Below are positions 3,408 through 61,818 of a stretch of 64,000 nt of DNA, piece by piece. How positions within the stretch are numbered: the first letter of the stretch is position 1; each line of letters opens with the position of its first letter. The notes under the pieces are model-generated. The model saw only the letters and a program-made list of their open reading frames with translations. It had not been told where the DNA came from and ran no database searches. A program made the position numbers and the translations under genes. Source of the DNA: Dokdonia sp. 4H-3-7-5 (GTDB taxonomy: Bacteria; Bacteroidota; Bacteroidia; Flavobacteriales; Flavobacteriaceae); assembly GCF_000212355.1 (NCBI RefSeq), contig NC_015496.1, positions 1 through 64,000 of the forward strand, in the 5' to 3' direction.

Positions 3408-6400
3408 TTAGTTTGCTAATTTTTGTTCTTCCTCTAGTCTTATTAAAGCCTGGCGGTATTCTTCTGGTAACACTTTCGTGAAATTGCCTATTTCCACATC
3501 CCAATTTTCTAGGAAACGTTGTGCTAGTGGAGATTGTGTGGCATTATAATGGTTTTCGACCAATTGTCTAAGTTCCTCACGATCTTGTGTTTCTTCTACT
3601 TTTAAGAAGTTTAAGCCCTCTGAGTTTGCTTTTCGCGAAAGCGAACTATCAACATCATACACATATGCAATTCCACCACTCATTCCAGCTCCGAAGTTTC
3701 TTCCCACAGCTCCTAAAATCACTGCTACTCCTCCTGTCATATACTCACAACCATGATCACCTATACCTTCTACAACAGCTCTAGCTCCCGAGTTACGTAC
3801 ACAAAAACGCTCTCCAGCCTTTCCATTGATGTAAGCCTCTCCAGCAGTGGCACCGTAAAATGCTACGTTTCCAATAATGACATTATCCTCAGGAATTATG
3901 GTTGCCTCTACAGGTACTTTTACAATCACTTTTGCTCCAGAAAGTCCTTTGCCTATATAGTCATTTGTATTTCCAGTAACCGAAAGTGTTAGTCCATGCG
4001 TTGCAAATGCTGCAAAACTCTGCCCAGCCGAACCTTCAAAGTTGATTTTTAATGTATTTTCTGGCAGCCCATTAACTCCATAAATTTTTGAGATCTCATT
4101 ACTTAAAATGGCTCCTACTGCTCTGTCTTCATTTGTAATCTTAAGATCAAGCGTGGTTTTCTCTTTTCTGAATAATGCAGGGTGCGCCTGAGATATAATT
4201 TTAAAATCTAATGCTTTTTCTAAATCATGATCTTGCTTTTCGATATTTCTCAAGGATTGCCCTTCCTTAACGTCTACTTTATGAAGAATAGGAGACAAAT
4301 CGAGTCCTAATGCTTTGTACTGATCTATAGCGGTGTTTCGCTCTAGTTTTTGCACTTGCCCAACCATTTCATCTACGGTCTTGAAGCCAAGCTTTGCCAT
4401 AATCTCACGAAGCTCTTGCGCTACGAAATACATGAAGTTAACTACATGTTCTGGCTTTCCTTTGAAACGTTTACGTAACTCTGGGTTTTGCGTAGCAATT
4501 CCCACAGGACATGTATTTAAGTGACATACACGCATCATAATACATCCAGAAGCCACTAGCGGTGCTGTGGCAAAACCAAACTCCTCTGCTCCTAAAAGAC
4601 ATGCAATTGCTACGTCTCTACCGGTTTTGAGTTGGCCATCACATTCTAATCTCACACGACCACGCAAATCATTCATAACGAGTGTTTGCTGCGCTTCGGC
4701 GAGTCCTAACTCCCACGGAAGTCCCGTATGTTTTAATGAAGTAAGCGGCGTTGCACCAGTACCTCCATCATGACCAGATATTAAAATCACATCTGCCTTA
4801 GCTTTTGCAACACCTGCAGCCACAGTCCCCACCCCTACTTCTGACACTAATTTTACATTAATGCGCGCCTCTCTATTTGCAGATTTAAGGTCATAAATAA
4901 GCTGTGATAAATCTTCAATCGAGTAAATATCATGGTGCGGTGGTGGAGAAATCAATCCTACATATGGAGTAGAATTACGTGTTTTTGCAATTTCTGGATT
5001 TACTTTAGGCCCAGGCAACTGCCCTCCTTCACCAGGCTTTGCTCCCTGCGCCATTTTGATTTGAATCTCTGCAGCATTTGTAAGATAATTTGAAGTAACT
5101 CCAAAACGTCCAGAAGCTACTTGCTTGATTGCACTGTTTTTCCAGTCTCCATTTACATCTTTATAAAAACGCTCTTGATTTTCTCCTCCTTCACCAGAAT
5201 TAGATTTACCATCTATACGATTCATCGCTACAGCTAGTGTCTCATGCGCTTCTTTACTGATAGATCCATAAGACATTGCTCCCGTTTTAAAACGCTTTAC
5301 AATATCCGTCCATGGCTCTACTTCTTCAATATCTATAGGATCATAATTTGTAAATTCAAACAACCCTCTAATGGTCATTAGTTGTTTTGCTTGATTATTT
5401 ACACGATCTGCATACTCCTTATAAATTACAGGCTTATTGCTTCGTACAGATTCTTGAAGTTTTGCAATCGTAAGCGGATTAAACAAATGAGCCTCCCCGT
5501 CTCTTCGCCATCTGTACTCACCACCTATTTCTAGAGGTAAGTCTGCAGCAATTTCTTTCTTATCGTAAGCAGCTGTATGACGCTTACTTATTTCTCCTTC
5601 TAATTGATGCAATCCTACACCCTCAATTCTAGTCACCGTGCGAGGAAAGTATTTTGAAACTACTTTTTTACTAATACCTATACATTCAAATAATTGCGAA
5701 CTGCGATATGAATTGAGTGTAGAAATACCAATCTTATTCATCACCTTGAGCACTCCTTTACCTACAGCCTTATTGAAGTTTTGAATAGCCTCCTCCACAT
5801 CTACACTAGCAAGCTCAAGGTCTTCTGGATGATTTTCTATAATCTCATTTACCATATATGGGTTAATCGCGCTCGCGCCATAACCAAATAATAATGCAAA
5901 GTGATGCACTTCCCTAGGCTCTGCAGACTCAATAATTAAACTTAACTGAGATCTCTTCTTATGAGTTGCTAGTCCGTTGTTTACATAAGAACATGCTAAC
6001 AATGCTGGTATAGGTGCCTCTGTAATTGACGTATTTCTATCTGATAGAATAACAATATTTGCACCCTCATCAAGCTGCTTACTTACATTTTGCAACAGTT
6101 TTTCTAGTGCTTCCTCGAGGCCATTATGACCTCTCTCTACCTGATATAACATCGGTACAGAAACTACTTTAAAGTTTTTGTCATCTAGACTTTTAATCTT
6201 GTCTAAATCTTGTTTTGATATAACTGGGTTCTGGATTTTAAGTTTTCTACAATGCGCGGCATTTATGTCGAAAATATTATAATCGGCTCCCAGGGTTAAA
6301 GAAATATCTGTAATCAGCTCCTCTCTTATTCCATCAAGAGGCGGATTTGTTACTTGAGCAAATAATTGTTTAAAGTAATTATAAATGAGCTGCGGTCTTT

Positions 6401-7946
6401 CTGAAAGCGCAGCAATAGGAGCATCATTACCCATAGAACCTATAGGCTCCTTGGCATTTGCAGCCATGGGTAATATGATGGTATTTATATCTTCTTGTGT
6501 GTACCCAAAGGTGATTAAACGATCCTTAAGCGGTGCTTCATTTAAAAATAGCGGACACTCATTATAAGGAATATTCCTTAAGTGAATTAAATTTTCATCA
6601 AGCCATTCTTGATAAGGGTTACGCGTAGCAATCTCCTCTTTTATTTCCTCATCGTTAATGATACGACCTTGCGCCATATCTACTAGAAACATCTTACCAG
6701 GTTCTAAACGACCGTGAAACTGTACATTGCTAGGCTCAATATCTACTACACCAATTTCTGAAGCCATAATCACGTAGCCATCCTTTGTAACAGAATAACG
6801 CGATGGACGCAATCCATTACGATCAAGTACCGCTCCTATATAATTACCATCTGTAAATGGAATAGATGCAGGACCATCCCAAGGCTCCATTAGGCAGGAG
6901 TTAAATTCATAAAAAGCACGTTTTGCAGGAGACATTTCCTTATTTTTCTCCCATGCTTCTGGCACGAGCATCATCATTACCTCTGGAAGTGAGCGACCTG
7001 TCATTAATAACAGCTCCACCACCATATCCATAGAAGCACTATCAGATTTGCCTGGTATCACCACTGGAAGAACAGCTTTAATATCCTCTCCAAAGAGCGG
7101 ACTCTCCATAAGTTCTTCTCTGGAATACATACGAGTTACATTGCCTCGCAACGTATTAATCTCTCCATTATGGCACATGTATCTAAAAGGCTGCGCAAGA
7201 TCCCATGTAGGGAATGTATTTGTTGAAAAACGCTGATGCACAAGTGCCAGGCGCGTCACAACCCTAGGATCCATCAAGTCCTTATAATAAACCTTAATGT
7301 CTTGAGGCATTAATAGCCCCTTATAAATTATTGTTTTGGTTGAAAAACTAGGTACATAAAAGAATGAACTTTCAGATAGCTTAGAATCATATATAGTGTG
7401 TTCTGCAATTTTACGTGCAGTAAATAATTTTAAGTTGAATGCAAATTCTGGAGTGTGTTTTTGTTGCGCTTTCGCGAAAGCGGGATTTTTATCACCACCG
7501 TCATATGAAACAAAGATTTGCTTTACAAAGGGCTCAGAAACCTGAGCAATCTCACCTAAGATAGATTTATCTACCGGCACATCTCTCCATCCTATAATAT
7601 GTATGCCCTGATCTGTAAGACTCTTTTCAAACACCGAAATACAGTAATCTCGTTGATTTTGTTTAAGAGGGAGAAACACATTACTCACAGCATAACTTCC
7701 TTCTTGTGGCAACTCAAAATCACAGCTAGCTTGAAAATAATCATGAGGAATATCTATAAGTATTCCTGCACCATCTCCCGTTCTTCCATCTGCACTTACT
7801 GCTCCTCGATGCTCTAGTTTTTCAAGAATTTCTAGTGCTTTGTGGATAATGTCGTTTGACTTTATTCCTTTTAAACTACAAATGAATCCTGCTCCACAAG
7901 CATCGTGTTCAAATTCTCTTAAATATAATCCCTGATCCTTAAGCAT
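3408..7946 (-). CDS. gltB: glutamate synthase large subunit
   Basis: The large (alpha) subunit hydrolyses glutamine in its N-terminal glutaminase domain and channels ammonia to the FMN site, where 2-oxoglutarate is converted to glutamate. The 1512 residues match the family length. The predicted catalytic Cys17 lies in DACGAGF, implying removal of a short propeptide. The FMN/glutamate synthase domain contains the 3Fe-4S cysteines in CIMMRVCHLNTCPVGIA around 1135-1150, and a C-terminal Gly-rich beta-helix (GXXGXXXG repeats) closes the protein. It is first in the gltBD operon. It contains two copies of the dispersed palindrome: one exact (PAFAKAQ) and one with an extra T (SLSRKA). Confidence 0.98.
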   Translation of the reverse strand: MLKDQGLYLREFEHDACGAGFICSLKGIKSNDIIHKALEILEKLEHRGAVSADGRTGDGAGILIDIPHDYFQASCDFELPQEGSYAVSNVFLPLKQNQRDYCISVFEKSLTDQGIHIIGWRDVPVDKSILGEIAQVSEPFVKQIFVSYDGGDKNPAFAKAQQKHTPEFAFNLKLFTARKIAEHTIYDSKLSESSFFYVPSFSTKTIIYKGLLMPQDIKVYYKDLMDPRVVTRLALVHQRFSTNTFPTWDLAQPFRYMCHNGEINTLRGNVTRMYSREELMESPLFGEDIKAVLPVVIPGKSDSASMDMVVELLLMTGRSLPEVMMMLVPEAWEKNKEMSPAKRAFYEFNSCLMEPWDGPASIPFTDGNYIGAVLDRNGLRPSRYSVTKDGYVIMASEIGVVDIEPSNVQFHGRLEPGKMFLVDMAQGRIINDEEIKEEIATRNPYQEWLDENLIHLRNIPYNECPLFLNEAPLKDRLITFGYTQEDINTIILPMAANAKEPIGSMGNDAPIAALSERPQLIYNYFKQLFAQVTNPPLDGIREELITDISLTLGADYNIFDINAAHCRKLKIQNPVISKQDLDKIKSLDDKNFKVVSVPMLYQVERGHNGLEEALEKLLQNVSKQLDEGANIVILSDRNTSITEAPIPALLACSYVNNGLATHKKRSQLSLIIESAEPREVHHFALLFGYGASAINPYMVNEIIENHPEDLELASVDVEEAIQNFNKAVGKGVLKVMNKIGISTLNSYRSSQLFECIGISKKVVSKYFPRTVTRIEGVGLHQLEGEISKRHTAAYDKKEIAADLPLEIGGEYRWRRDGEAHLFNPLTIAKLQESVRSNKPVIYKEYADRVNNQAKQLMTIRGLFEFTNYDPIDIEEVEPWTDIVKRFKTGAMSYGSISKEAHETLAVAMNRIDGKSNSGEGGENQERFYKDVNGDWKNSAIKQVASGRFGVTSNYLTNAAEIQIKMAQGAKPGEGGQLPGPKVNPEIAKTRNSTPYVGLISPPPHHDIYSIEDLSQLIYDLKSANREARINVKLVSEVGVGTVAAGVAKAKADVILISGHDGGTGATPLTSLKHTGLPWELGLAEAQQTLVMNDLRGRVRLECDGQLKTGRDVAIACLLGAEEFGFATAPLVASGCIMMRVCHLNTCPVGIATQNPELRKRFKGKPEHVVNFMYFVAQELREIMAKLGFKTVDEMVGQVQKLERNTAIDQYKALGLDLSPILHKVDVKEGQSLRNIEKQDHDLEKALDFKIISQAHPALFRKEKTTLDLKITNEDRAVGAILSNEISKIYGVNGLPENTLKINFEGSAGQSFAAFATHGLTLSVTGNTNDYIGKGLSGAKVIVKVPVEATIIPEDNVIIGNVAFYGATAGEAYINGKAGERFCVRNSGARAVVEGIGDHGCEYMTGGVAVILGAVGRNFGAGMSGGIAYVYDVDSSLSRKANSEGLNFLKVEETQDREELRQLVENHYNATQSPLAQRFLENWDVEIGNFTKVLPEEYRQALIRLEEEQKLAN
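3628..3642. repeat. dispersed palindrome, variant copy (gltB)
   Basis: GCTTTTCGCGAAAGC is the 14-bp palindrome with one extra T. It is read in gltB as SLSRKA near the C-terminus, i.e. in the LSRK frame. Confidence 0.7.
7468..7481. repeat. dispersed palindrome, exact copy (gltB)
   Basis: Exact GCTTTCGCGAAAGC, extended to 16 bp by C and G on either side. It is read as AFAKA in a variable loop of the glutaminase domain of GltB. Confidence 0.9.
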
Positions 7947-11102: not shown

Positions 11103-11126
11103 ACTGTTTTTAGGGTTTTTGGTTTT

Positions 11127-11140
11127 GCTTTCGCGAAAGC
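11127..11140. repeat. dispersed palindrome, exact copy (intergenic, before phosphatase)
   Basis: Exact GCTTTCGCGAAAGC followed by GTGATAA, the same seven bases that follow the copy at 51995. It lies 26 bases before the phosphatase ATG. Confidence 0.9.
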
Positions 11141-13533: not shown

Positions 13534-15165
13534 CTACTGCTGATACACTTTTACACCATCTACATACGTAGCAGCGACTTTTAAGTTAGGAATCTTATCC
13601 TCTTCTACCGTCATGATATCTTCATCCATGATGATGAAATCTGCAAACTTCCCAGTTTCAATACTTCCTTTTTCGTCTTCTTCAAAATTTGAATAGGCAG
13701 CCCAGATTGTCATTCCTTTTAAAGTTTCCTCTCTAGTTAAGGCATTCTCCATTTGATATCCACCTTCTGGATATTGCTTTAAATCTTTACGAGCAACAGA
13801 TGCATAGAACGTATAAAACGGACTTACCTGCTCTACTGGGAAATCTGTTCCTAGTATTACAATTCCTGACTGATTTAATAAGTCTTTGTATGCATATGCT
13901 CCTTTAATACGCTCTGCTCCTACTCTATCTTCTGCCCAATACATATCGCTAGTAGCGTGTGTAGGCTGTACAGAAGGTAAAATCTTCTCACTAAAAACAT
14001 CAAAATCTTCTCTTGATACTATTTGTGCATGTTCTACTTTCCATCTTGGATCTGTTTTAGAAGCTAGCACTTTTTCATAAGCTCTTAGTACAACTACGTT
14101 TGCACTATCACCTATGGCATGTGTATTCATTTGGAAATCTGCTGCGGCGATACGTTTTGCAAGATCATTCATCTCTTCAGAAGGTGTTATCATCGCTCCA
14201 AAATGTCCATCCTTATCACTATAAGCCTCACGCATTGTCGCTCCACGAGAACCAAGAGCTCCATCACCATAAACCTTAATAGAACGTACATTAAGACGAT
14301 CTGTTTTTACTTTTCCTGTAGTGAGGTAGTGATCTAGATTTTCTTCATTATTAGATAACATTGCATATACTCTCATTTGCAAACTTCCAGCTTGCTGAAG
14401 GCTATCTATAAGTTCTACAATGTTTTTATTAAGACCTGCATCATTTACTGTAGTAAGACCGTAAGAAAAACAAAGCTCCTGTGCTTCTAGTAACACTTGA
14501 GCACTTTCGGCAGTGCTAGGTTGTGGTAATACTGCGTCAACTAATGTTTGCGGTGTGTCAATAAGAACACCCGTTACTTTGCCGTCTACAAGTACGACTT
14601 CTCCTCCACTTACCTTTGTAGAAGCATCTATACTAGCAAGATCTAATGCTTTTTGATTTACTAAATATGCGTGACCGTCCACACGCTCTAAAACAACAGG
14701 AACATCTGGAAATAAAGCGTCAAGCTTATCTTTTGTAGGAAATTCTTTTACAGCCCAATCGTTCTGATCCCATCCTCTTCCTCTCAACACAGTTGCATCA
14801 GGATTTTCCTTTGCAAAGGCAGATACTTTTGCAATTACCTCATCATAACTTTCAGTGCCAACGAGATCTGCTATTTGGAGATTTTGACCTAATCCATAAA
14901 AGTGACAGTGGCCGTCTATAAGTCCTGGTAACACAGTTTTGCCAGTAGCATCTATTGTTTCAGCAGCTTCATACTTTTCAGTAATGTCGTTAGATGTGCC
15001 TACTGCTATAAATTTTCCATCTTTGATTGCAAATGATTCCGCTTTCGCGAAAGCGTTATCTACAGTATACACATTTGCATTTGTAACAATAAGATCTACA
15101 GATTGCTTAGTCTCGCAAGAGAATAATAAAGGAATAATTGCTAAAGAATATAGAATTTTACGCAT
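13534..15165 (-). CDS. exported amidohydrolase (YtcJ-like), lipoprotein
   Basis: A 543-residue metal-dependent hydrolase of the amidohydrolase-3/YtcJ group. Residues 1-17 form a lipoprotein signal (LLFSC), placing the enzyme at the periplasmic face of a membrane. The metal-binding HxH is in LIDGHCHFYG near residue 82; later His and Asp ligands are in NTHAIGDSA, EHAQIVS and LGTDFPVE. YtcJ-type enzymes hydrolyse cyclic amides or N-acyl compounds, but the substrate here is unknown. It carries the palindrome at 15041 (NAFAKAE) near the start of the mature domain. The next gene upstream on the same strand is 51 bases away. Confidence 0.9.
   Translation of the reverse strand: MRKILYSLAIIPLLFSCETKQSVDLIVTNANVYTVDNAFAKAESFAIKDGKFIAVGTSNDITEKYEAAETIDATGKTVLPGLIDGHCHFYGLGQNLQIADLVGTESYDEVIAKVSAFAKENPDATVLRGRGWDQNDWAVKEFPTKDKLDALFPDVPVVLERVDGHAYLVNQKALDLASIDASTKVSGGEVVLVDGKVTGVLIDTPQTLVDAVLPQPSTAESAQVLLEAQELCFSYGLTTVNDAGLNKNIVELIDSLQQAGSLQMRVYAMLSNNEENLDHYLTTGKVKTDRLNVRSIKVYGDGALGSRGATMREAYSDKDGHFGAMITPSEEMNDLAKRIAAADFQMNTHAIGDSANVVVLRAYEKVLASKTDPRWKVEHAQIVSREDFDVFSEKILPSVQPTHATSDMYWAEDRVGAERIKGAYAYKDLLNQSGIVILGTDFPVEQVSPFYTFYASVARKDLKQYPEGGYQMENALTREETLKGMTIWAAYSNFEEDEKGSIETGKFADFIIMDEDIMTVEEDKIPNLKVAATYVDGVKVYQQ
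15041..15054. repeat. dispersed palindrome, exact copy (amidohydrolase)
   Basis: Exact GCTTTCGCGAAAGC, read as NAFAKAE. With flanks TTCC before and GTTATC after it shares 24 identical bases with the copy at 36067 in an unrelated peptidase gene. Confidence 0.9.
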
Positions 15166-18198: not shown

Positions 18199-21100
18199 CT
18201 ACCCTTTTTCTACAGAGGCATTTGTTTTTCCTTCTGCTTGTTTAATAATTGCTAGTTCGCCACGAGCTTTTTCTACAGTCTCTGGATAATCTGCAAAGTT
18301 TGTAATCACACTTTCTAGAATATATGTTGCTTGATATGCATCTCCTAGTGCATAAAAGTTCTTTGCCATAAGCACAAGACCTTTTGCTCCATACTCTTTA
18401 AAACCGCTATAATCTTTTGCTAGTTTTTGAACTGCAACATTAGATGCTTCAAAGTTTTGAGCTTCATTTTTAAAGTAGGCATCGTAATATAAAGCCTCTG
18501 CTGCAAGTGCTCCTGTAGCAATTTTTTGAACCTCGGCATAAGCTGTCTTAGCTCTGGCTTTATCACCTGTCTTTATAGAAGAGCGAGCAATTATTATTTG
18601 CGCATCACTTTTTACTGCATTATCAATTTTTGCATTTCCAAGTACCTTTTCAGCATAGCCTACTGCTTTTATCAAGTCTTCACCTTCATAAAAAGATTTC
18701 ATGAGGTTAGACTGAGCAAAAATGATATTCTGTGGGAAGTCTGCTTCTGTTTCTAGTCGTTTTAATACCGGAATTGCAGCTGTATAGTTTTTATCTGTAA
18801 GATATACTTGCCCTAAACGTGCAAGTGCTTGCTCCGTAAACTCACTACGCTCCTTTGTTATAACAAATTGGTAATGCGGAATTGTTTTTTTGTATTCCGC
18901 TTTCGCGAAAGCGAGCTGCCCTAAATAAAAATGAGCTTGTAATGCATGCTGCCCATTAGGATAGTCACTCAAGTATGACTCAAAAAGTCGTTCTGCTTGA
19001 CCTACATTATTCTCCACATATTGCTTCTCTGCCGAAGCGTAGGCAGCATCATCAAGCTCTGCATCCTCCACATCGATAAAATCTAATGTGCTCACCCATT
19101 GACCATATTCATCTACACGACCTAAATCTATATAAATAAGCTTTGCCGTAGTCACTGCTTGCAATGCCTCCGGAGTTCCTGGATAATCACCAGCTACCTT
19201 GCGCAAAAGTGCGAGTGCCTCATCGGACTTGTTTTTATTATCAAGTATCAACGCTTTTTTAAGCATTGCTTTTGACACGTAAGAACTACCAGGTAAATCT
19301 CTTACTAATTTATCATAAGCTGTAATTGCTTGATCATTTTTGTTTTGAGATACATAGATGTTACCTAATTCATAAAGCGCATCATCGCGATAAGTAGAAT
19401 TTGGAAACTTGGTCGAAAAAGTTTGAAGTCCGCTTATTTTGTCCTCATCCTTTTTTATAAAACCATAACTCATCGATTTTTGAAAAGTCGCATAATCTTG
19501 ATCTGTCATATTAAGCGCTATAGACTTATTATAGGCTTCAAGTGCAGGCCAGTACTTACTACTTATAAAACGGCTATCACCTAGACGTAAATACGCATCA
19601 TTAAGTTTACTTTGATCTTGCACATTACTTGCAGTATACGACTCAAAAACGGTCGCTGCTTGTTCATACTGCTTATCCGAAAAATATGCATATGCAAGGT
19701 TATAATTGATGTCTTGATATTCTGGAGTATTTGCAGCGTTACTGTTATTTAAAAACTGCTTGTACCCTATAATTGCTTCTTTAAAATCATTTGCAACATA
19801 ATCACTTTCTGCTTTCCAGTAAGTTGCACGTGTCACATATAATGGATCGCGTGGTTCTTTAAGAGATTTTTTAAATGCTGCAGCAGCCTCGGGATAATTG
19901 CCCTCATTATAAAGATCAAGACCATAAAGAAACGCTACTTTTTGATAAGCTACCTTATTATCAAAATTGCTGTTGCTTTCTAGCAAGCGCATTGCCTCTT
20001 TGTAATTTTTTGAGGTGATGTAAGAATCTATTAGTAATGCTTCTAGTTCTGGCTTTGCTGGAGATTTTGGATATGTATCTATATAATCTGTAATCACAGC
20101 AGGTGTAGACTTGTAAGCATTACCTATTTCATAGCTCAGCTTTGCATAATTAAGACCACTATCTTCTTTGATTTGTGCATTAAAGTCCATTTCACTTGCA
20201 TTTTTAAATGCGTTGAGTGCTTCTTGCTTTTTATCTAATTTTAGGTAAGATTCTGCTAGGTGGTAATATCCATTTTGTGCTACACTATTGTTACCATCAA
20301 TTATTTTATTAAATTCATTGATAGCGTTTGCATAATCTCCCTGCTTATAATATGTATATCCTAGCTGGTAGTAATCTGTATTATTCCACTTACCACGCTT
20401 TCCTTTGTAGGCTTGTAAATATGGTAATGCCTCTGCATACCTCTTTTGGTTAAAATAGCTTTCTCCTATAATTTTATTAAGCTCAGACTTTTCTGTTGGG
20501 TTTGCTTTTGCCAGCTGTGACTTCCCTTCTGAAATTGCTTCGTCAAATTTTCCTAACTTAAAATTAAGGTCTGCTTTAAAGTATGCAAGATCCTCATTAT
20601 ATGCTCCTCCTGTTTCTGCTTCTACTTCCTCAAAAAGCTCATTTGCCTCTTCATATTCATCACCCTCATAAGCCATAAAACCTATGTAATACTTAGCCTG
20701 CGTTCCATATTTTTTTGAATCACGTACACGGTTTAAGTACTTCTTTGCTTCATCAAAACGATTACTTTTAAAATAAGCATAACCGTTATTAAAGTAAAAA
20801 GTCTCCTTTTCTCCAGCTGTAAGCGTACTTTCATCTACGCGATCATACCATTTGCGAGCATAAGCAAATTTGCCATTATCAAAGTAATACTGAGCTACAT
20901 CTAGAAATGCACTGTTGCGCTTTGTACTTGTAGGGTACTCTGTGACGAAAGTGGTCATAAGATCATCTGCCCCTTGCTGATTAAGACGTACTGCCGCGTT
21001 TGCAATGTAATAAGCACAATCACCTTTTACGGTGGTATCATCTGTATCCCCCTTTACTTCCTCAAAAAGAGTTTGCGATGCTAGATATTGCTTACTATTA

Positions 21101-21285: not shown

Positions 21286-21299
21286 GCTTTCGCGAAAGC
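21286..21299. repeat. dispersed palindrome, exact copy (intergenic)
   Basis: Exact GCTTTCGCGAAAGC between the divergent TPR and pirin genes, 67 bases upstream of the TPR ATG and downstream of its putative -7 element. It would therefore lie in the TPR mRNA leader. Confidence 0.9.
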
Positions 21300-22600: not shown

Positions 22601-22614
22601 ATTTTCGCGAAAGC
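22601..22614. repeat. dispersed palindrome, degraded copy (intergenic)
   Basis: ATTTTCGCGAAAGC, two left-end mismatches to the palindrome, followed by GTTA as in other copies. It lies 10 bases after the pirin stop. Confidence 0.6.
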
Positions 22615-34109: not shown

Positions 34110-34123
34110 GCTTTCGCGAAAGC
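34110..34123. repeat. dispersed palindrome, exact copy (intergenic)
   Basis: Exact GCTTTCGCGAAAGC, extended to an 18-bp palindrome by AC and GT, between convergent genes and 13 bases after the M49 peptidase stop. Confidence 0.9.
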
Positions 34124-40337: not shown

Positions 40338-42383
40338 TTAGTCTTCTACAAAAGGTACTTCTTCAAGTTCTAATGTATCTGTATATTTCATAAGATACAC
40401 CGCGCTATTTGAAAAGCCTCCTTTAGCTCTAGAGCTATACTTAAATTTGTTTTCTACATAGTCTGTCTCTACACCAGTCGCTGCTGCTGCGTACAAATCT
40501 GATGAGTATGCTAGGCGTAGCAAAGTGTCATACATCAAATCATATCCTTTTATTGCAGATTCGCTTGGACTCACTCCATACATGGTTTCATAACTATCAA
40601 TAAATGCTTTTGCTTTACTGTACTTATATTCTTTCTCGGCAGATGGAAAATGAAAAGCAAGATTCTTTAGGTGATCATGTTGTATCTCATCACTATCATA
40701 AGCATTACCCCTATCTGTAGTAAACATTACTACTTTCATAGTGCCTAATTGTCCATTGAGACTCGTAGTAACACTACTAATCAAAGGAACATCATTAGTC
40801 TCTACAATCACCCAGTTTTCTAGTTCGCTAGAAAGTTGTGCTGGAATATCTCCTGGATACAAGAAATATCCTTTATCATTAGAACGAGGTGTTACCGTCT
40901 TTAAATTGGGAAAAATCGCCTTTATCTTTGATAATGTAGTACTGTTTTTCTTGTCTGCTATTACAACAATGTTTTTACCTGATCCATTAGCTTTTAGATA
41001 AGAAAGCATTTTTTTTCTTAAAAGATTATCTTCTGGTCTTGATACAAAAATGTTATTTCCACCAGCTACTTTGTTAGACCTAGGTGAGATTACTGGTATC
41101 TTACGTGCGTTAAGTAGTGACGACGCTCTATCTATGTTATTACCTAGAAGTGGCCCTATTACTGCATTAACACTTGAAAAATCATTAGACTGAATAATGG
41201 TTTCTACTTTACGTGCATTTGTTGCCGGGCCATCTTTACGATTATATGATGTATCATAGGTGTCAACAATTGTGGTTATACCTACTTTTTTAGCATCTTG
41301 GACTGCCATGAGCATTCCACTATATAAATCTAGAGATAGTCTAAGGATACGATCATCTCTAAGTAGATTTTCATTTACCTCTGTATTACCCGTATTTACA
41401 CGGCCTACACCAAATGGAAGCATTATAGCTACACGTTTAGGAGAGAAATCCGTTAATTGATTAACCAGAGATCCTTTTTCACCTTCTAGAATAGTAACGT
41501 CAGGATTTCCTTGGTTTTCTGCAACGGCTTGCGTTGGGGTACCAGAACCTGGACTTCCCTTAGGCACTTTGAGGATCATTCCTTCCTTAAGACCTTCGTC
41601 TAATGCTGGATTTAGTGCGATTAACTCATCTGCCTCTAGCTTAAAAATGCGTAATAAACTGTACAAAGTGTTTCCTTTTTGCACTTCATAAAAGGCATAT
41701 TCATCATTATCTATGATGGTGCTTTTTGCAAAATTTGCTTTAGGAACTTTAAGCTCATCGCCTATTTTAAGTCCATCTCTAAGTGATGGATTTGTACTCT
41801 CAAGCTCTGCTATAGTAATTCCATACTTTCTAGCGATACCGTATTTAGTCTCTTTTGCAATTACATTGTGCGTTATATACGCTACTTGCGTTTGCGGCAC
41901 ATTTACTACTGCATCTGTAACACTATTTTCGCTATAGTTGACAGGTATACGAAGTTTATCACCTTTTCGTAACACTTCGCTATATAAAGACTTATTAAAA
42001 CGTTTTATCACTTCTTGAGAAACACCATACTTTTTAGAGATGCTATAAAGTGTTTCCTTGCGTTTCACCTTGTGTGTTTTAAACTTTAGGTTATCCTGAG
42101 TAACACTATCTGACTTTCTATCAGCAGTTGCTGTAGATGGTAAAATTAACACCAATCCTTCGTAAACCTCCTCACGAGCGTCTGGATTGAGCTTAGTAAT
42201 TTCTGTTTCGGTAATGCCAAACTTATAGGCTATGTCCTTGAGAGTTTCTCCAGCTTTCACTTGGTGAGAAACAAACTTTTGAACAGTTGCCGTATTGCTA
42301 GCTATTGTAGCTGCTGGTGTTGAGCACGCTTTAGCGAAAACGCTAAAAACAATAATCGCAATTACGGTAATATATTTTTTCAT
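40338..42383 (-). CDS. lipoprotein with four LysM domains and a periplasmic-binding-protein-like domain
   Basis: A 681-residue envelope protein. The signal ends FAKAC (Cys20), a lipoprotein Cys. Four LysM modules follow (about 40-85, 103-150, 168-213 and 225-272), e.g. HQVKAGETLKDIAYKFGI and YEVQKGNTLYSLLRIFKL; LysM binds peptidoglycan. The C-terminal half (about 312-675) has a type 1 periplasmic-binding fold (VAIMLPFGVG, AVIGPLLGNN, ISPRSNK). It probably senses or tethers cell-wall material. It lies 9 bases after guaA. The lipobox overlaps a degraded palindrome copy. Confidence 0.88.
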   Translation of the reverse strand: MKKYITVIAIIVFSVFAKACSTPAATIASNTATVQKFVSHQVKAGETLKDIAYKFGITETEITKLNPDAREEVYEGLVLILPSTATADRKSDSVTQDNLKFKTHKVKRKETLYSISKKYGVSQEVIKRFNKSLYSEVLRKGDKLRIPVNYSENSVTDAVVNVPQTQVAYITHNVIAKETKYGIARKYGITIAELESTNPSLRDGLKIGDELKVPKANFAKSTIIDNDEYAFYEVQKGNTLYSLLRIFKLEADELIALNPALDEGLKEGMILKVPKGSPGSGTPTQAVAENQGNPDVTILEGEKGSLVNQLTDFSPKRVAIMLPFGVGRVNTGNTEVNENLLRDDRILRLSLDLYSGMLMAVQDAKKVGITTIVDTYDTSYNRKDGPATNARKVETIIQSNDFSSVNAVIGPLLGNNIDRASSLLNARKIPVISPRSNKVAGGNNIFVSRPEDNLLRKKMLSYLKANGSGKNIVVIADKKNSTTLSKIKAIFPNLKTVTPRSNDKGYFLYPGDIPAQLSSELENWVIVETNDVPLISSVTTSLNGQLGTMKVVMFTTDRGNAYDSDEIQHDHLKNLAFHFPSAEKEYKYSKAKAFIDSYETMYGVSPSESAIKGYDLMYDTLLRLAYSSDLYAAAATGVETDYVENKFKYSSRAKGGFSNSAVYLMKYTDTLELEEVPFVED
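42328..42341. repeat. dispersed palindrome, degraded copy (LysM gene lipobox)
   Basis: GCTTTAGCGAAAAC, two mismatches, read on the minus strand as VFAKAC, i.e. at the lipobox itself. It could be chance. Confidence 0.35.
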
Positions 42384-45401: not shown

Positions 45402-45438
45402 TTTACAATAAGTATTCTGATTGTATTTTTACTTTACG

Positions 45439-45861
45439 ATGAAAATAGTTCAAGAACCACAGTTTAAGCAATCTTTTGATATGAAGCGTCACGCTTTATA
45501 CAATGAGGCTATGGATCTTTTTACGCTTTCGCGAAAGCTGTCTAATGGAAATTTGCAACACAGTATTTTAAACTGTCCTTCAGAAAAAGAACTTGCCACA
45601 AATCTATCTGAATTTATTTCGCACACAGCGCTATCATTACCTATGTCTATTGCCGAAGCGGCAGTAACTGCCGACTATTCAAAAAAACTTTATTTTCAAA
45701 AGCATATAGAGGAGCGAGTAAGCCAACTTTCTAAACTCTGTAAAAAGCTCGAAGTCCTTTACCGCAATCGCTGTCATAGTGTACAACAACTAGCACATAA
45801 AGCTCATAAGCTTGAGGCAGGATTTAAAAAGTGGTCGTTACAGTTGACAAGTCAAAACTAG
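45439..45861 (+). CDS. hypothetical helical (four-helix-bundle-like) protein
   Basis: A 140-residue soluble, basic, all-helical protein. The pattern ALYNEAMDLFTLSRKLSNG ... SLPMSIAEAAVTADYSKKLYFQKHIEERVSQLSKLCKKLEVL resembles the four-helix-bundle (23S rRNA intervening-sequence protein-like) family, but similarity is weak and the function is unknown. I start at the ATG 45439; the frame opens at a TTG at 45421 that would add MYFYFT. The palindrome at 45525 is read as FTLSRKLS. Confidence 0.7.
   Translation: MKIVQEPQFKQSFDMKRHALYNEAMDLFTLSRKLSNGNLQHSILNCPSEKELATNLSEFISHTALSLPMSIAEAAVTADYSKKLYFQKHIEERVSQLSKLCKKLEVLYRNRCHSVQQLAHKAHKLEAGFKKWSLQLTSQN
45525..45538. repeat. dispersed palindrome, exact copy (helical protein gene)
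   Basis: Exact GCTTTCGCGAAAGC preceded by TTAC, read as TLSRKL. Confidence 0.9.
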
Positions 45862-47240: not shown

Positions 47241-47939
47241 ATGAAATTATACTTAATGCTTCTTGCATCTTCTCTAATTATCCTAAGCTGTAAAGAGGAG
47301 AATACCACAACTACAGAAGATACGAATAAACTCGAAGTTGAAGCTACATTCACACCAACCACAGAGGCAGAAAAAGTTGCTTATGCAAACGGTCTAGCAA
47401 ACTGGAAAGATGTAAAACAACTTGACTTTACATTTAATGTAGATCGCAACGGTGCTACTGTAGCAAGTCGTTCATGGTCTTGGAAACCAGTCACAAATGA
47501 TGTGACTATGATTGCCGCTGGAGATACCATTTCTTATAATCGTGCTACCGTAGACAGCACCTCTATGCAAGCAGACCAAGGGTTTATAAATGATAAATAC
47601 TGGCTTCTTGCTCCTTATCAACTTGTTTGGGATGAAGGAACTTCAATAAAAGTAACCGACAGTGTTATGAGTCCGCTTTCGCGAAAGCAAACTAAAAAAC
47701 TTACTCTTCTGTACGGAAATGAAGGAGGTTACACACCAGGAGACGCCTACGACTTCTACTATGGCGATGACTATGTAATTACTGAATGGGTATTTAGAAA
47801 AGGAAATGCTACCGAACCTTCTATGGTTACAACTTTTGAAGGATACAAAAATATCGAAGGGCTTTCTATAGCTACTGACCACAAGAGTGAAGATGGTAGC
47901 TTTAGACTATACTTTACAGATGTAAACGTCATCAAATAA
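47241..47939 (+). CDS. hypothetical lipoprotein
   Basis: A 232-residue lipoprotein: signal MKLYLMLLASSLIILSC, Cys17, then a Thr-rich linker. The mature domain is beta-rich with aromatic strands (SWSWKPVTNDV, YDFYYGDDYVITEWVFRKG) and looks LolA/LppX-like or like other lipid-binding outer-membrane lipoproteins, but I cannot assign a family. The next gene starts 1 base after its stop, so they are co-transcribed. The palindrome at 47675 is read as SPLSRKQT. Confidence 0.75.
   Translation: MKLYLMLLASSLIILSCKEENTTTTEDTNKLEVEATFTPTTEAEKVAYANGLANWKDVKQLDFTFNVDRNGATVASRSWSWKPVTNDVTMIAAGDTISYNRATVDSTSMQADQGFINDKYWLLAPYQLVWDEGTSIKVTDSVMSPLSRKQTKKLTLLYGNEGGYTPGDAYDFYYGDDYVITEWVFRKGNATEPSMVTTFEGYKNIEGLSIATDHKSEDGSFRLYFTDVNVIK
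47675..47688. repeat. dispersed palindrome, exact copy (lipoprotein gene)
   Basis: Exact GCTTTCGCGAAAGC preceded by TCC, read as PLSRKQ. Confidence 0.9.
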
Positions 47940-49200: not shown

Positions 49201-50529
49201 TTATTTCATTTGATTCATCATCTGCATCATCTTGCGGCCTCCGCCTCCTTGCATCATTTTCATCATCTTACTCATTTGATTAAATTGCTTGAGTAACTGA
49301 TTTACTTGTTGTACCGAGGTACCAGATCCTTTCCCTATGCGCTTTTTACGACTTGCGTTAATCGTAGTAGGATTTTCTCGCTCACCAGGCGTCATGGAGT
49401 GAATGATTGCCTCTATATGCTTAAATGCATCGTCATCAATGTCTACATCTTTGAGCATCTTTCCGGCACCTGGGATCATTCCCATTAGGTCCTTCATGTT
49501 ACCCATTTTCTTTACTTGCTGGATTTGCTTTAAGAAATCATCAAAACCGAATTGGTTTTTTGCAATTTTCTTTTGAAGCTTTCTAGCTTCTTCTTCATCA
49601 AACTGCTCTTGTGCTCTCTCTACAAGTGATACAACATCTCCCATTCCAAGAATTCGATCTGCCATACGTGAAGGATAGAATACATCTATCGCTTCCATTT
49701 TCTCCCCTGTACCTATAAATTTAATAGGCTTGTTTACTACAGATTTAATAGAAATTGCTGCTCCACCTCTTGTATCTCCATCTAGCTTTGTAAGGATAAC
49801 CCCGTCAAAGTTAAGAATATCATTAAAGGCTTTTGCTGTATTTACAGCATCTTGACCAGTCATCGAGTCTACTACAAAGAGTGTCTCTTGTGGTTGTATT
49901 GCAGCATGAACGTCTGCAATTTCTTTCATCATCACCTCATCTACAGCAAGACGACCTGCTGTATCAATGATTACTACGTTGTGACCGTTTGCTTTCGCGA
50001 AAGCGATACCATCTTGAGCAATCTTTACTGGATTCTTCTCATCACGATCAGAATATACATCTACCTTAATCTGATCTCCTACTACGTGTAACTGATCAAT
50101 AGCCGCTGGACGATATACATCACAGGCAACTAGTAAAGGTTTCTTTGTTTTCTTGGTTTTAAGGAAGTTTGCAAGCTTACCTGAAAAGGTTGTCTTACCA
50201 GAACCTTGTAAACCTGACATTAAGATAATAGATGGAGTGCCAGAAAGATTAATTCCTTCTGCATCACCTCCCATTAATTCTGTAAGCTCATCTTTTACAA
50301 GCTTCACCATTAACTGCCCTGGTTGTAGGGTCGTTAATACATCAGATCCTAAAGCTTTTTCTTTAACACGGTTTGTAAATTCCTTTGCAGTCTTAAAGTT
50401 AACATCTGCATCTATAAGAGCACGACGCACTTCCTTAAGTGTCTCTGCAACGTTTACTTCCGTAATGCTACCGTGACCTTTGAGTACGTGTAGGGCTTTA
50501 TCTAACTTATCACTTAAATTATCAAACAT
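49201..50529 (-). CDS. ffh: signal recognition particle protein Ffh
   Basis: Ffh is the GTPase of the SRP; with 4.5S RNA it targets nascent membrane proteins to FtsY and SecYEG. The 442 residues are standard: N-domain four-helix bundle, G-domain with GLQGSGKTT near 108, DTAGRL near 188 and TKLDGDTRGG near 245, and a Met-rich M-domain ending GGGGRKMMQMMNQMK. The palindrome at 49991 is read as GIAFAKANG next to the DTAG motif. A -7 element (TAAATTTG) lies 24 bases upstream. Confidence 0.98.
   Translation of the reverse strand: MFDNLSDKLDKALHVLKGHGSITEVNVAETLKEVRRALIDADVNFKTAKEFTNRVKEKALGSDVLTTLQPGQLMVKLVKDELTELMGGDAEGINLSGTPSIILMSGLQGSGKTTFSGKLANFLKTKKTKKPLLVACDVYRPAAIDQLHVVGDQIKVDVYSDRDEKNPVKIAQDGIAFAKANGHNVVIIDTAGRLAVDEVMMKEIADVHAAIQPQETLFVVDSMTGQDAVNTAKAFNDILNFDGVILTKLDGDTRGGAAISIKSVVNKPIKFIGTGEKMEAIDVFYPSRMADRILGMGDVVSLVERAQEQFDEEEARKLQKKIAKNQFGFDDFLKQIQQVKKMGNMKDLMGMIPGAGKMLKDVDIDDDAFKHIEAIIHSMTPGERENPTTINASRKKRIGKGSGTSVQQVNQLLKQFNQMSKMMKMMQGGGGRKMMQMMNQMK
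49991..50004. repeat. dispersed palindrome, exact copy (ffh)
   Basis: Exact GCTTTCGCGAAAGC in an essential gene, read as AFAKA where AFAK-like residues would be tolerated by the family. Confidence 0.9.
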
Positions 50530-51836: not shown

Positions 51837-52778
51837 ATGCAAATATCTGTTGTCATACCTCTTCTCAACGAGGAAGAATCACTTAAAGAACTACACCATT
51901 GGATTTCAGAAACTCTGGAAACCAATGGTTTTTCTTATGAAATCCTATTTATAGATGATGGAAGTACAGATGCTTCTTGGGAGGTGATTGAAACGCTTTC
52001 GCGAAAGCGTGATAACATCAAAGGAATTCGCTTTAACCGTAACTACGGTAAATCTCAAGCCTTACATGCAGGTTTTGAAGCTGCCGAAGGTGATGTAATT
52101 ATCACTATGGATGCAGATTTGCAAGACAATCCAGAGGAGATTCCAGACTTATACAGAATGATTACCGAAGATAAGTATGACCTGGTCTCAGGATGGAAAA
52201 AGAAACGCTACGACTCTGTAATTGCAAAAAACTTACCTAGCAAACTATTTAATGCAGCGGCAAGGAAAACAAGCGGACTCAAACTACACGACTTTAATTG
52301 TGGCTTAAAAGCTTATAAAAAAGAGGTCATCAAAACTGTAGATGTATATGGTGAGATGCACCGTTACATACCCGTACTTGCTAAGAATGCAGGGTTTTCA
52401 AACATAGGTGAGAAAGTAGTACAACATCAAGCTCGTAAGTATGGTGAGACTAAATTTGGTATGGAACGCTTTTTAAATGGCTTCTTAGATTTACTCACGA
52501 TTTGGTTTTTAGGAAGTTTTGGAAAGCGACCTATGCATCTTTTTGGAGCACTAGGCGTACTAATGTTTGTAATAGGTTTTGGATTTGCCGGATACTTAGG
52601 TATAGATAAAGTATTCTTTCATAGAGCGGGCAGACTGATTACAGAGAGACCACAATTTTATATATCACTTGTTGCGATGCTTATGGGTATTCAACTATTT
52701 ATTGCTGGCTTCTTAGGCGAACTCGTACTAAGATCAAAACGTGATAAAAAGAGATACAATATTAAAGAGACTTTATAA
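51837..52778 (+). CDS. GT2 family glycosyltransferase (dolichyl/undecaprenyl-phosphate sugar synthase-like)
   Basis: A 313-residue enzyme of the DPM1/DPG-synthase-like GT2 group. It has an N-terminal GT-A fold with VVIPLLNEEESL, DDGSTDASWE near 41 and the metal-binding DADLQDNPEEIP near 97, then two C-terminal transmembrane helices (about 230-255 and 270-300). It probably transfers a sugar from a nucleotide donor to a polyprenyl phosphate at the cytoplasmic face. Neighbours are DUF4199, a phosphohexomutase and an MsbA-like exporter. The palindrome at 51995 is read as ETLSRKRDN. Confidence 0.9.
   Translation: MQISVVIPLLNEEESLKELHHWISETLETNGFSYEILFIDDGSTDASWEVIETLSRKRDNIKGIRFNRNYGKSQALHAGFEAAEGDVIITMDADLQDNPEEIPDLYRMITEDKYDLVSGWKKKRYDSVIAKNLPSKLFNAAARKTSGLKLHDFNCGLKAYKKEVIKTVDVYGEMHRYIPVLAKNAGFSNIGEKVVQHQARKYGETKFGMERFLNGFLDLLTIWFLGSFGKRPMHLFGALGVLMFVIGFGFAGYLGIDKVFFHRAGRLITERPQFYISLVAMLMGIQLFIAGFLGELVLRSKRDKKRYNIKETL
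51995..52008. repeat. dispersed palindrome, exact copy (GT2 gene)
   Basis: Exact GCTTTCGCGAAAGC, 18-bp palindrome with AC and GT flanks, followed by GTGATAA as at 11127; read as TLSRKR. Confidence 0.9.
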
Positions 52779-52867: not shown

Positions 52868-54595
52868 ATGGTATACCACGATCCCGCTATTTTAGAAAAA
52901 GCAAATGCATGGCTTACAGAGACCTTTGATGAGGAAACTCAACAAGCCATTAAAGAAAATATCGCTCACAATCCAGATGAGCTTGCAGATAGTTTCTATA
53001 AAAATCTAGAATTTGGTACTGGCGGTATGCGCGGTATCATGGGAGCTGGAACTAACAGAATTAATAAATATACCTTGGGAAAAAACACTCAAGGTCTATC
53101 TGACTACCTACACAAACAGTTTCCTGACAAAAAAATAAAGGTCGCTATTGCTTATGATTGCCGTCATAACAGTAAAGAACTTGCTCAGGTGGTTGCAAAT
53201 GTATTTTCGGCAAATGGGATTAAAGTATTCCTATTTTCTGACCTGAGACCTACACCAGAATTAAGTTTTGCTGTGCGTCATCTAGATTGCCAGTGTGGTA
53301 TTGTACTCACTGCAAGTCACAACCCGCCAGAATATAACGGTTACAAAGTGTACTGGGAAGACGGTGGACAGCTGGTACCACCACAAGATGCAGAAATAAT
53401 AGCTATTATTGAAGCGCTTGATTTTAGCGCTATAAAATTCAAAGGAGATGACTCCCTTATTGAACTTGTAGATGAAGAGGTAGATAAAGCCTTTGTAGAT
53501 GCAAGTGTTGCAAATGTATCTTTTGGCCTTACTAATGAAGTAAAGGAGAACTTAAATATCGTTTTCACCTCGTTACACGGTACCTCAATCACACTCGTGC
53601 CAGACACATTAAAACAAGCTGGTTTTACCACTCTTAACATTGTAAAAGAACAAGAAGTACCAGATGGTAACTTCCCTACTGTAGTTTCTCCTAATCCAGA
53701 AGAAACTGCTGCTCTTAAAATGGCGCTTGAACTAGGAGAAGAAAAAAAAGCAGATATTGTCATAGGCACAGACCCAGACTGTGATCGACTAGGGATTGCT
53801 GTGAGAGGAGATGATGGCAAGCTTACCATTTTAAATGGTAATCAAACCATGATCTTAATGACAGATTATTTATTAGAACGCTTTCGCGAAAGTGCAGATC
53901 AACACTCATCACCATTTATAGGAAGCACCATCGTATCTACACCTATGATGGATGTTCTTGCAGCAGCATATGATGTAGAATGCAAAACAGGACTTACAGG
54001 CTTTAAATGGATTGCCAAAATGATTGAAGATTATCCTAACCAACACTTTATAGGTGGTGGTGAAGAAAGCTTTGGATATATGGTAGGTGACTTTGTAAGA
54101 GATAAGGATGCTGTAACCGCTACCCTACTCGCTTGTACGATTGCTGCGCAGGCAAAAGAAGAAGGACAAACACTGTTTGAAAAACTTAAAACACTGTACG
54201 TAAAACACGGTTTTTACAAGGAAACATTAATTGCTCTTGTAAAAAAAGGACAATCTGGCGCAGCAGAAATCAAACAAATGCTGAAAGATCTTCGTCTTGA
54301 GCCTATGAAAGAAATTAATGGAAGTAAGGTGATACGTGTAGAGGACTATCAATCATCTATAAGTCGTGACCTTATTACTGGAGAAACCACTACCATTGAT
54401 GTTCCAAAGTCTAATGTACTTATCTTTTATACAGAAGACGGTAGCAAAGTTGCCGCGCGACCAAGTGGCACAGAACCTAAAGTAAAGTTTTATATAAGTG
54501 TAAATGCTCCACTAGCTTCGTTAAATGAGTATGACACAATTTCTGCTTCATTAGATAAACGTCTTGCTGGTATAAAAAATGCATTAGGCGTTTAA
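52868..54595 (+). CDS. phospho-sugar mutase (phosphoglucomutase/phosphomannomutase)
   Basis: A 575-residue alpha-D-phosphohexomutase that interconverts sugar 1- and 6-phosphates. Motifs: GTGGMRGIMG (about 50-59), the phosphoserine loop TASHNPPEYNGYK near 147, the Mg-binding GTDPDCDRLG near 303, the sugar loop GGEESFGYM near 400, and the C-terminal phosphate loop RPSGTEPKVKFY near 535. Its length matches the PgcA/Pgm2-type subgroup. It supplies activated sugar for the neighbouring envelope enzymes. The one-mismatch palindrome at 53880 is read in the third frame as ERFRES. Confidence 0.95.
   Translation: MVYHDPAILEKANAWLTETFDEETQQAIKENIAHNPDELADSFYKNLEFGTGGMRGIMGAGTNRINKYTLGKNTQGLSDYLHKQFPDKKIKVAIAYDCRHNSKELAQVVANVFSANGIKVFLFSDLRPTPELSFAVRHLDCQCGIVLTASHNPPEYNGYKVYWEDGGQLVPPQDAEIIAIIEALDFSAIKFKGDDSLIELVDEEVDKAFVDASVANVSFGLTNEVKENLNIVFTSLHGTSITLVPDTLKQAGFTTLNIVKEQEVPDGNFPTVVSPNPEETAALKMALELGEEKKADIVIGTDPDCDRLGIAVRGDDGKLTILNGNQTMILMTDYLLERFRESADQHSSPFIGSTIVSTPMMDVLAAAYDVECKTGLTGFKWIAKMIEDYPNQHFIGGGEESFGYMVGDFVRDKDAVTATLLACTIAAQAKEEGQTLFEKLKTLYVKHGFYKETLIALVKKGQSGAAEIKQMLKDLRLEPMKEINGSKVIRVEDYQSSISRDLITGETTTIDVPKSNVLIFYTEDGSKVAARPSGTEPKVKFYISVNAPLASLNEYDTISASLDKRLAGIKNALGV
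53880..53893. repeat. dispersed palindrome, one-mismatch copy (phosphohexomutase)
   Basis: GCTTTCGCGAAAGT, read as RFRES, the only copy in the third reading frame. Confidence 0.75.
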
Positions 54596-54604: not shown

Positions 54605-54618
54605 AATTTCGCGCAAGC
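54605..54618. repeat. dispersed palindrome, degraded copy (intergenic)
   Basis: AATTTCGCGCAAGC, three mismatches, followed by GG; lies 12 bases before the ABC exporter ATG. It may be a decayed copy or chance. Confidence 0.35.
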
Positions 54619-56465: not shown

Positions 56466-56466
56466 A

Positions 56467-57198: not shown

Positions 57199-57259
57199 TT
57201 TAGAGTTATGGCTTCTATGCATATTTACCATAAAGTATGCCATTGTTGATTAAAATTAC

Positions 57260-57273
57260 GCTTTCGCGAAAGC
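57260..57273. repeat. dispersed palindrome, exact copy (intergenic)
   Basis: Exact GCTTTCGCGAAAGC at the centre of a longer, 22-bp perfect palindrome (57256-57277, outer arms TTAC and GTAA). It lies between divergent genes. Confidence 0.9.
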
Positions 57274-57420
57274 GTAACAACAACCTAACGCATCCAAAGA
57301 TAAAATATTTGAAATTTATAGCTCGATATATCAGTTGGCAAAATTTATTGTTCATTACAACATATTAAGAAATAAATTGAAATGTAATGCGTTCTAACCA
57401 CATCAAACAAATGAATACTT

Positions 57421-58476: not shown

Positions 58477-58483
58477 GTTTTTA

Positions 58484-58504
58484 AACTACTCAATTTGAGT
58501 AGTT
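58484..58504 (+). terminator. weak hairpin after the vWA gene
   Basis: AACTACTC-AATTT-GAGTAGTT, 8-bp perfect stem 8 bases after the stop, but with no T run behind it. Confidence 0.4.
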
Positions 58505-58582
58505 AATCGACTTAAAAGATGGCTTTATGGATTGATATGATTACAAAATTCTATTGTTCACTATTGATTTTAGACAATAGTA

Positions 58583-58590
58583 TATCTTTG
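58583..58590 (+). promoter_or_regulatory. -7 element of the 58595 gene, leaderless configuration
   Basis: TATCTTTG matches TAnnTTTG with only 4 bases before the ATG. A TTG at 58564-58566 is 16 bases upstream. Confidence 0.5.
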
Positions 58591-58594
58591 TATT

Positions 58595-60563: not shown

Positions 60564-60570
60564 AACTTAA

Positions 60571-61779: not shown

Positions 61780-61804
61780 GTAAGATGTAGTATTATGAAA
61801 TTAC

Positions 61805-61818
61805 GCTTTCGCGAAAGC
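61805..61818. repeat. dispersed palindrome, exact copy (intergenic)
   Basis: Exact GCTTTCGCGAAAGC preceded by TTAC and followed by GTGA, in the 73-base divergent gap between rlmI and the dipeptidase gene, 26 bases from one ATG and 35 from the other. Confidence 0.9.

Follow-up and report, generated by a model that had tools for sequence, protein, structure and literature searches.

Introduction

Only a handful of short signals that recur across whole genomes have been described in bacteria; they include Chi, uptake sequences, the highly iterated palindrome HIP1, the FtsK-orienting polar sequences (KOPS) and others. In this study, we analyzed a 14-bp palindrome, GCTTTCGCGAAAGC, that recurs throughout the genome of Dokdonia sp. 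4H-3-7-5 (Bacteroidota; Flavobacteriaceae; assembly GCF_000212355.1). A preliminary description drew attention to it in the window, i.e., the whole stretch of 64,000 nucleotides under analysis (positions 1 to 64,000 of contig NC_015496.1), the start of which adjoins dnaA. This source genome is denoted G000 below, and other G numbers are comparison genomes. The interpretation that we favor, tentatively and on comparative grounds, is that the palindrome may mark self DNA throughout the genome in the manner of an uptake sequence, rather than serve as a gene-regulatory site or be a mobile element.

Uptake sequences are in excess between genes and scarce in newly acquired DNA, and the uptake signal sequence (USS) of Pasteurellaceae combines a core with AT-rich extended flanks (PMC7811141). 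An over-strict consensus and 24% of gapped alignments are reported for the USS (PMC1626085). A member of the Flavobacteriaceae, Riemerella columbina, is reported to prefer its own DNA (PMC7965970). The USS and the DNA uptake sequence (DUS) of Neisseriaceae resemble the Dokdonia palindrome in having hundreds to thousands of exact copies with a strict core and a looser flank, an excess between genes, scarcity in new DNA, presence in resident phage and a core common to related genera. The palindrome differs from both in its symmetry, in a longer invariant core, in a strand-polar flank on both sides and in its Bacteroidota host; furthermore, most of the site-rich genomes have no detected type IV pilus protein, and the role in uptake is a predicted one.

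Other described signals share some of these properties. Chi has a similar density and a T/G-rich strand polarity, but it is short and one-directional, whereas the Dokdonia site is a 14-bp palindrome. The parS sites, the Noc-binding sites (NBS), the SlmA sites and matS are, like the Dokdonia palindrome, exact and positionally conserved palindromes bound by dimers (in Dokdonia, such binding is predicted); however, they occur in tens of copies with regional placement, whereas Dokdonia has ~750 copies and no ParB-family paralogue. Repetitive extragenic palindromic (REP) sequences and Rickettsia palindromic elements (RPE) are also short repeated palindromes, but they spread by copying, whereas the Dokdonia sites stand at fixed shared positions and are scarce in new DNA. 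The HIP1 octamer of cyanobacteria, GCGATCGC, is likewise highly iterated, in and between genes, and limited to certain clades, some clades having none, and its deviations are reported to concentrate at outer positions (PMC4390886); it has 8 bp, whereas the Dokdonia site has 14 bp plus flanks of ~25 bp, and its inner words are not enriched outside the site.

Beyond the iteration noted in the preliminary description, we report here the even spacing of the sites, their strand-polar flanks of ~25 bp, their site-by-site conservation and their on/off distribution across genera.

Results

Abundance and phylogenetic distribution

The palindrome GCTTTCGCGAAAGC is present in 757 copies in the 3,389,993 bases of G000, i.e., one per 4.5 kb, and the same pattern read backwards is absent. 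The early claim that the count is far above chance is fully supported: 464 kb of this genome contain 101 exact copies versus 0.001 expected under an order-1 model, and dinucleotide-preserving shuffles of the window (n = 100) gave a mean of 0.16 and a maximum of 2 matches at up to two mismatches, versus 20 observed. The site had also been proposed to be genome-wide, which is supported; it is dense in all 18 members of the genus that were counted, the 17 further ones having 369-905 copies each; of the 59 genomes in the same search (including G000), 20 have at least one copy and 39 have none.

Among 397 Flavobacteriaceae genomes, large sets were found in g1 (Dokdonia; 757 and 857 copies), g11 (578, 664 and 609) and g210 (G230, 408), the remaining genomes having 0-19 copies; a count in 395 genomes from the whole phylum gave no more than 1 copy for any genome that is not of this family. 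A scan of named sequences yielded at least 111 stretches with the site, comprising 44 from Dokdonia, 25 from Nonlabens, 4 from strain BBFL7 and 38 from other organisms. The group g11 may be Nonlabens, an identity for which DNA similarity gave no confirmation. In the DnaA tree, G230 and G184 group with Dokdonia (99/98), and g11 is placed elsewhere, with several forks open. It should be noted that G184 and G368, of the genus g164 that groups with Dokdonia and G230 in this tree, have only 9 and 6 copies, respectively; the system may have been lost in this genus, which might still contain relics of sites. When 15-40 kb from each of nine site-poor genera were searched, at low power, no comparably overrepresented palindrome was found, and overrepresented words in G254 were traced to a stretch (L407) that contains transferred sites. 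A literature search on the 14-mer, on its first 13 letters and on palindromes in Flavobacteria, Nonlabens or Dokdonia recognized no report of the site, most subscription papers being outside its coverage.

Core and flanks

The core is strict. In addition to the 101 exact copies, the 464 kb of G000 contain 11 one-mismatch and 20 two-mismatch copies, and in 17 of the latter 20 the outer dinucleotide is altered on one side. The count decreases from 148 for TCGCGA to 127 for TTCGCGAA, 125 for TTTCGCGAAA, 103 for CTTTCGCGAAAG and 101 for the full 14-mer; outside the 14-mer, TCGCGA occurs about as often as chance predicts (47 observed vs. 37 expected; 27 observed vs. 29 expected). The core is frequently extended to TTAC (42 of 202 flanks in G000 and 70 of 224 in G016) or GTAC.

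On both sides, the strand that runs 5' to 3' into the palindrome is C-poor and T/G-rich for ~25 bp. The frequency of C on this incoming strand, at positions -25 to -4, is 7.7% (341/4444) in G000 and 7.9% (388/4928) in G016, compared to 18.5% and 19.0% (standard deviation 0.6%) at random places. The bias has faded by ~30 bp; it is present in G000 (101 sites), G016 (112 sites) and Nonlabens (44 sites), at all three codon positions and at intergenic sites, and in G230 (25 sites) it is clear only to about -7. Relative to background, flank substitutions at 73 sites show C > T at 0.57x (6 of 333), C > G at 7.8x and G > T at 4.1x. This deficit of C > T, with its accompanying excess of C > G and G > T, points to selection, not mutation, as what maintains the flank composition; deamination of an exposed strand was rejected as the cause of the C-poor flank on the same low C > T value. 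Across 30 positions at 343 sites, we found no covariation of the two flanks, or of mirrored positions, beyond position 2 (z 3.1), which suggests that the two half-sites are independent; an extended hairpin was rejected on this result. A periodicity of 6 bp in flank C was also dismissed as weak (p 0.04, vs. p 0.01 at 6.5 bp and p 0.03 at 3 bp), the T peaks at each 3 bp resembling codon structure.

Conservation and origin of the sites

Alignments to three relatives covered 195-282 kb, with identities of 93% (G008), 90% (G007) and 79% (G016). Exact sites are common to both genomes at 63 of 73 aligned places in G008, 65 of 73 in G007 and 41 of 61 in G016. Among the 20 places that differ from G016, 13 differ by 1-3 letters, one by 4 and six by 7-10; a gap falls inside the 14 columns at six of them, and 14 are ungapped. 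A third genome served to define 71 sites, at which third codon positions are 93.1% identical inside the motif (131 positions) versus 52.3% at a distance of 30-90 bp (1112 positions), and intergenic motif positions are 94.3% identical versus 77.2%. The flanks change near the background rate (0.73-0.82 vs. 0.79 overall), and their composition is kept. The preliminary description had proposed a site recognized by a protein, and the purifying selection at silent codon positions, together with the same rules in and between genes, agrees with a DNA-level site, presumably read by a protein.

A single site was found in the 37.4 kb of DNA that aligned to none of the three relatives (27 per Mb), compared to 51 sites in 196 kb (260 per Mb) of DNA aligned to all three. 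In comparisons with site-free genera, 9 of 11 comparable coding sites (some counted in both genomes) have a site peptide that is ungapped in the alignment shown, e.g., LVAFAKALS versus IVAFAKRLG. We infer that point mutation was probably the main origin of the sites, indels accounting for a minority, each site then being held by selection. Between lineages, 34 coding sites of Nonlabens/g11 were examined, of which 28 had no usable counterpart and none of the 6 testable ones is shared with Dokdonia; of 20 sites examined in G230, Dokdonia shares 1 of 6 testable ones. This test of orthology is weak because other Dokdonia likewise share only 2 of 6 testable sites (31 examined).

Placement and spacing

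It was initially thought that most copies lie inside genes, and this does not hold generally: two genomes, sampled over 864 kb, have 213 sites, of which 107 are intergenic on 12.7% of the bases, where intergenic means outside open reading frames (ORFs) of at least 100 aa, so that small genes count as intergenic. The density per base is thus 6.9 times higher between genes than inside them. The 107 intergenic sites comprise 60 tandem, 24 convergent and 23 divergent gaps; with no orientation bias between the last two, transcription terminators or promoters were rejected as an explanation, and a terminator also on account of the sequence after the palindrome, which is A/C-rich, not T-rich. Inside genes, the three coding frames are used 62, 22 and 22 times, and the window peptides are AFAKA, LSRK and RFRES. 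The AFAKA frame is often found where an exported protein begins, close to the end of its signal peptide or right at it (window position 42328; L056, L070, L080 and L112), which apparently is a tolerant place for the site.

Spacing is more even than random in G000, G007 and G016 (coefficient of variation, CV, 0.72, 0.65 and 0.78; simulated p at most 0.0015), and none of 97 intervals in G000 is below 500 bp; in the four genomes studied for spacing, which include G008, there is one site per 3.5-4.8 kb. Samples of G000 gave 216 sites per Mb at 0-324 kb, 200 at 0.9 Mb, 288 at 1.68-1.76 Mb and 100 at 2.50-2.54 Mb, four places that are too sparse for a chromosome map. An origin of large gaps between sites in rRNA was rejected, as three stretches gave no Rfam match. 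Positions 122246-125195 of G000 have many overlapping self-similar alignments in steps of ~370 bp, probably a gene with long tandem repeats.

Phages and transferred segments

In a scan of viral sequences, at least 120 stretches carry at least 133 sites, 53 of these 133 on stretches with GC below 45%. Eleven viral contigs with at least two sites, picked from these low-GC stretches among the matches listed and including three near-identical copies of one phage, have 91-266 sites per Mb of the sequence analyzed, and flank C on them is 10.2% versus 19.1% (22 unique sites). We scanned ten proteins from six viral contigs and found phage hallmarks on four contigs (portal, protease and head on one, integrase on another, integrase with large terminase on a third and tail fibre on the fourth) and none on two; at least two of the site carriers are temperate phages. 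The phage head and terminase proteins are nearest to those of Cellulophaga phage phi39:1 (45% and 48%). One site is retained between phages in a 75% identical stretch, and another is altered. In a flavobacterial-type siphophage family (L236, L257, L260, L234, L251 and L256), the palindrome lies near head genes and at one place conserved between relatives. A phage-collection search with one stretch of the window gave no match. For comparison, Haemophilus influenzae phage HP1 has 17 USS cores in 32.0 kb, with a spacing CV of 0.52; since this phage of a USS host carries cores, phage carriage of the palindrome fits an uptake signal.

The low copy numbers in other genera are often clustered, with recurring spacings of 933 and 2446 bp; such clusters look like DNA transferred from site-rich lineages, and scattered single copies may be due to chance. 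Two palindromes spaced by 933 bp mark a segment that was seen in L080 (1-8000), in G118 (contig C1, 2826985-2837722) and in G127, G141, G200, G254, G116 and G326. In L080, both palindromes are inside a gene for an outer-membrane efflux protein, which is adjoined by genes for a multicopper oxidase and a metal P-type ATPase; the segment, recurring in otherwise palindrome-free genera, is probably a transferred metal-resistance island. On some contigs, proteins of the ParB family with ~600 aa were seen within roughly 4-32 kb of clusters (G029:C18:76088, G348:C1:1320466, G254:C1:1204417 and G141:C1:2364602); perhaps these proteins and the palindrome clusters reside on integrative elements.

Copies in the window

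The window contains 15 exact copies, all at the places first listed for them, and six near copies, with a total of 20 at up to two mismatches; coordinates are given here without strand. Five exact copies encode AFAKA in genes of assigned or similar function, namely in gltB (7468..7481), in an ORF at 13534-15165 (-) that is amidohydrolase-like, with family matches under the cut-off (15041..15054), in a TPR/YbgF-like ORF at 18199-21219 (-) (18899..18912), in mnmA (30918..30931) and in ffh (49991..50004), and a sixth does so in an ORF at 34137-36161 (-) without an NCBIfam match (36067..36080). TLSRK is encoded in a gene for a methyltransferase-domain protein (Pfam PF13489; 38494..38507) and in a family-2 type glycosyltransferase gene (51995..52008). 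Two copies lie in ORFs without Pfam match, at 45421-45861 (+) (45525..45538) and 47241-47939 (+) (47675..47688). Divergent intergenic gaps hold the copies at 21286..21299, 57260..57273 and 61805..61818, and a convergent gap that at 34110..34123. The remaining copy (11127..11140) coincides with the start of a gene for a low-molecular-weight phosphatase or closely precedes it. The corresponding ORF at 11119 has a TTG start and a Pfam match beginning at residue 27; the original division into ten genic and five intergenic copies is correct if the gene really starts downstream of 11127, and otherwise the ORF list gives 11 and 4.

Four of the near copies were confirmed as such. They include two with one mismatch, in lysA (25452..25465) and in a phosphosugar-mutase-like gene, with the peptide RFRES (53880..53893), and two with two mismatches, one near the start of a LysM protein (42328..42341) and one intergenic, with both mismatches in the outer dinucleotide (22601..22614); all except the last are exact in G007, G008 and G016. 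The copy listed at 3628 is a form of 15 bases with one extra T in gltB (3628..3642), which scores as a two-mismatch match at 3629, and the weak intergenic copy at 54605..54618 has three mismatches and is exact in G016.

Discussion

We favor the uptake-type interpretation because of the strict core, the extended flank, the intergenic excess, the scarcity in new DNA, the probable origin mainly by point mutation and the core that is common to several lineages, whose testable coding sites mostly stand at different places. The conserved positions of the sites, their even spacing in three genomes and the reported own-DNA preference of Riemerella columbina also speak for it. Under this model, copies would arise mainly by point mutation, and a dimeric protein would bind the palindrome through two independently varying half-sites; in competent cells, this reader would favor site-bearing DNA for entry or processing, recombination with kindred DNA would add and repair copies, and resident prophages and integrated elements would gain sites likewise. 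A more specific proposal, possible but on balance doubtful, is that the 14-bp palindrome, with a T/G-rich strand leading in from both sides, is a two-way self mark, read by a candidate dimeric protein in Dokdonia, at least two other lineages and resident phages, which would decide on import, rescue or recombination of DNA.

Several observations weigh against a function in uptake. To our knowledge, known uptake sequences are not palindromes, and the strand polarity of the flank is without an obvious role in uptake. The inner-membrane protein of type IV pili and type II secretion systems (PF00482) is absent from 7 of 10 site-rich genomes, including G000; it is present in 3 of 10 site-rich and 4 of 20 site-poor genomes and was therefore rejected as a correlate of the site. 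Our literature search on competence in Dokdonia turned up none. Of 34 gene alignments to site-free genera, 14 have a gap in the site peptide, a larger share than the 24% for the USS, and small indels may have accompanied the origin of some sites. Silent divergence drops near sites; however, it is alike at matched pseudo-sites in four between-species genome pairs, i.e., no excess of recombination was detected near sites. Only the 40-100 bp bin of coding sites differs from pseudo-sites, in two of the four pairs (p 0.02 and 0.04), and this single-bin signal was taken as no evidence for a recombination gradient. Finally, the even spacing is not significant in G008 (CV 0.85, p 0.07), where the distribution is still non-random (Kolmogorov-Smirnov p 0.0006).

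An alternative that we consider unlikely is a chromosome-organizing protein of unknown family (nucleoid, division-placing or condensin-loading), bound as a dimer to each palindrome every ~4 kb, with resident elements keeping sites as dwellers on the chromosome. A perfect palindrome with independent half-sites is typical of dimer binding, and the strong conservation of each site and the even spacing are consistent with this model. Nevertheless, there is no obvious origin-terminus bias (216 per Mb by dnaA and 288 near 1.7 Mb, with four places sampled), and the polarity of the flank and the lack of sites in close genera are left unexplained. A segregation factor of the ParB/Noc type, suggested earlier, is disfavored, since site-rich genomes have no additional ParB-family protein: a single ParB_N protein was found in 9 of 10 such genomes and two in the tenth (G010), much as in site-poor genomes, and a ParB/Noc paralogue was rejected as the reader. 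A nucleoid protein from another family is a possible reader.

Quite unlikely, in our view, is a two-way Chi, at which an AddAB-type nuclease-helicase meeting the palindrome from either side would stop degradation of the 3' strand and start RecA loading on the incoming T/G-rich strand. The polar T/G-rich flank would be most readily accounted for by a strand-specific process, for example RecA loading at a site of this kind, given the known preferences of Chi and RecA: the polarity agrees with the strand that RecA would load from either direction. Proteins of AddB and AddA size with PDDEXK_1 are found in site-rich genomes, the density is like that of Chi in Escherichia coli, and sites are present on phages. 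However, every one of the 22 genomes tested, whether site-rich or site-poor, has AddA/AddB-like proteins, known Chi sequences are short and not palindromic, silent divergence is not lower around sites than around matched pseudo-sites, and the flank bias of G230 is not seen beyond about -7.

It is very improbable that the palindrome is made and kept by a DNA methyltransferase with an associated repair bias, on the model of HIP1. The great abundance in and between genes and the gathering of deviations at outer positions (as reported in PMC4390886) are shared with HIP1, but the near-chance frequency of TCGCGA outside the 14-mer speaks against the methyltransferase that had been suggested, as far as the sequence allows. 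In addition, 14 bp plus flanks exceeds the usual methyltransferase sites. A tiny mobile palindrome of the REP/RPE type, spread by copying, as had also been proposed, is extremely unlikely, because, despite a very strict consensus and the gaps at 6 of 20 places differing from G016 and in 14 of 34 site-free-genus alignments, positions are conserved between species while flanks change, most of the differing places are ungapped and differ by 1-3 letters, and strain-specific DNA is nearly devoid of sites.

Conclusions

If the palindrome is the two-way self mark proposed above, we know of no earlier palindromic self-DNA signal and of none before it in Bacteroidota. A palindromic unit of ~64 bp, at hundreds of conserved places in marine flavobacteria, would add another kind to the few genome-wide signals described. 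The palindrome is usable as a watermark for DNA out of these lineages, e.g., the recurring metal-resistance segment. The sharp presence/absence between genera should let comparative genomics find the reader, and the system offers a test of self/foreign DNA discrimination in bacteria without an evident type IV pilus.

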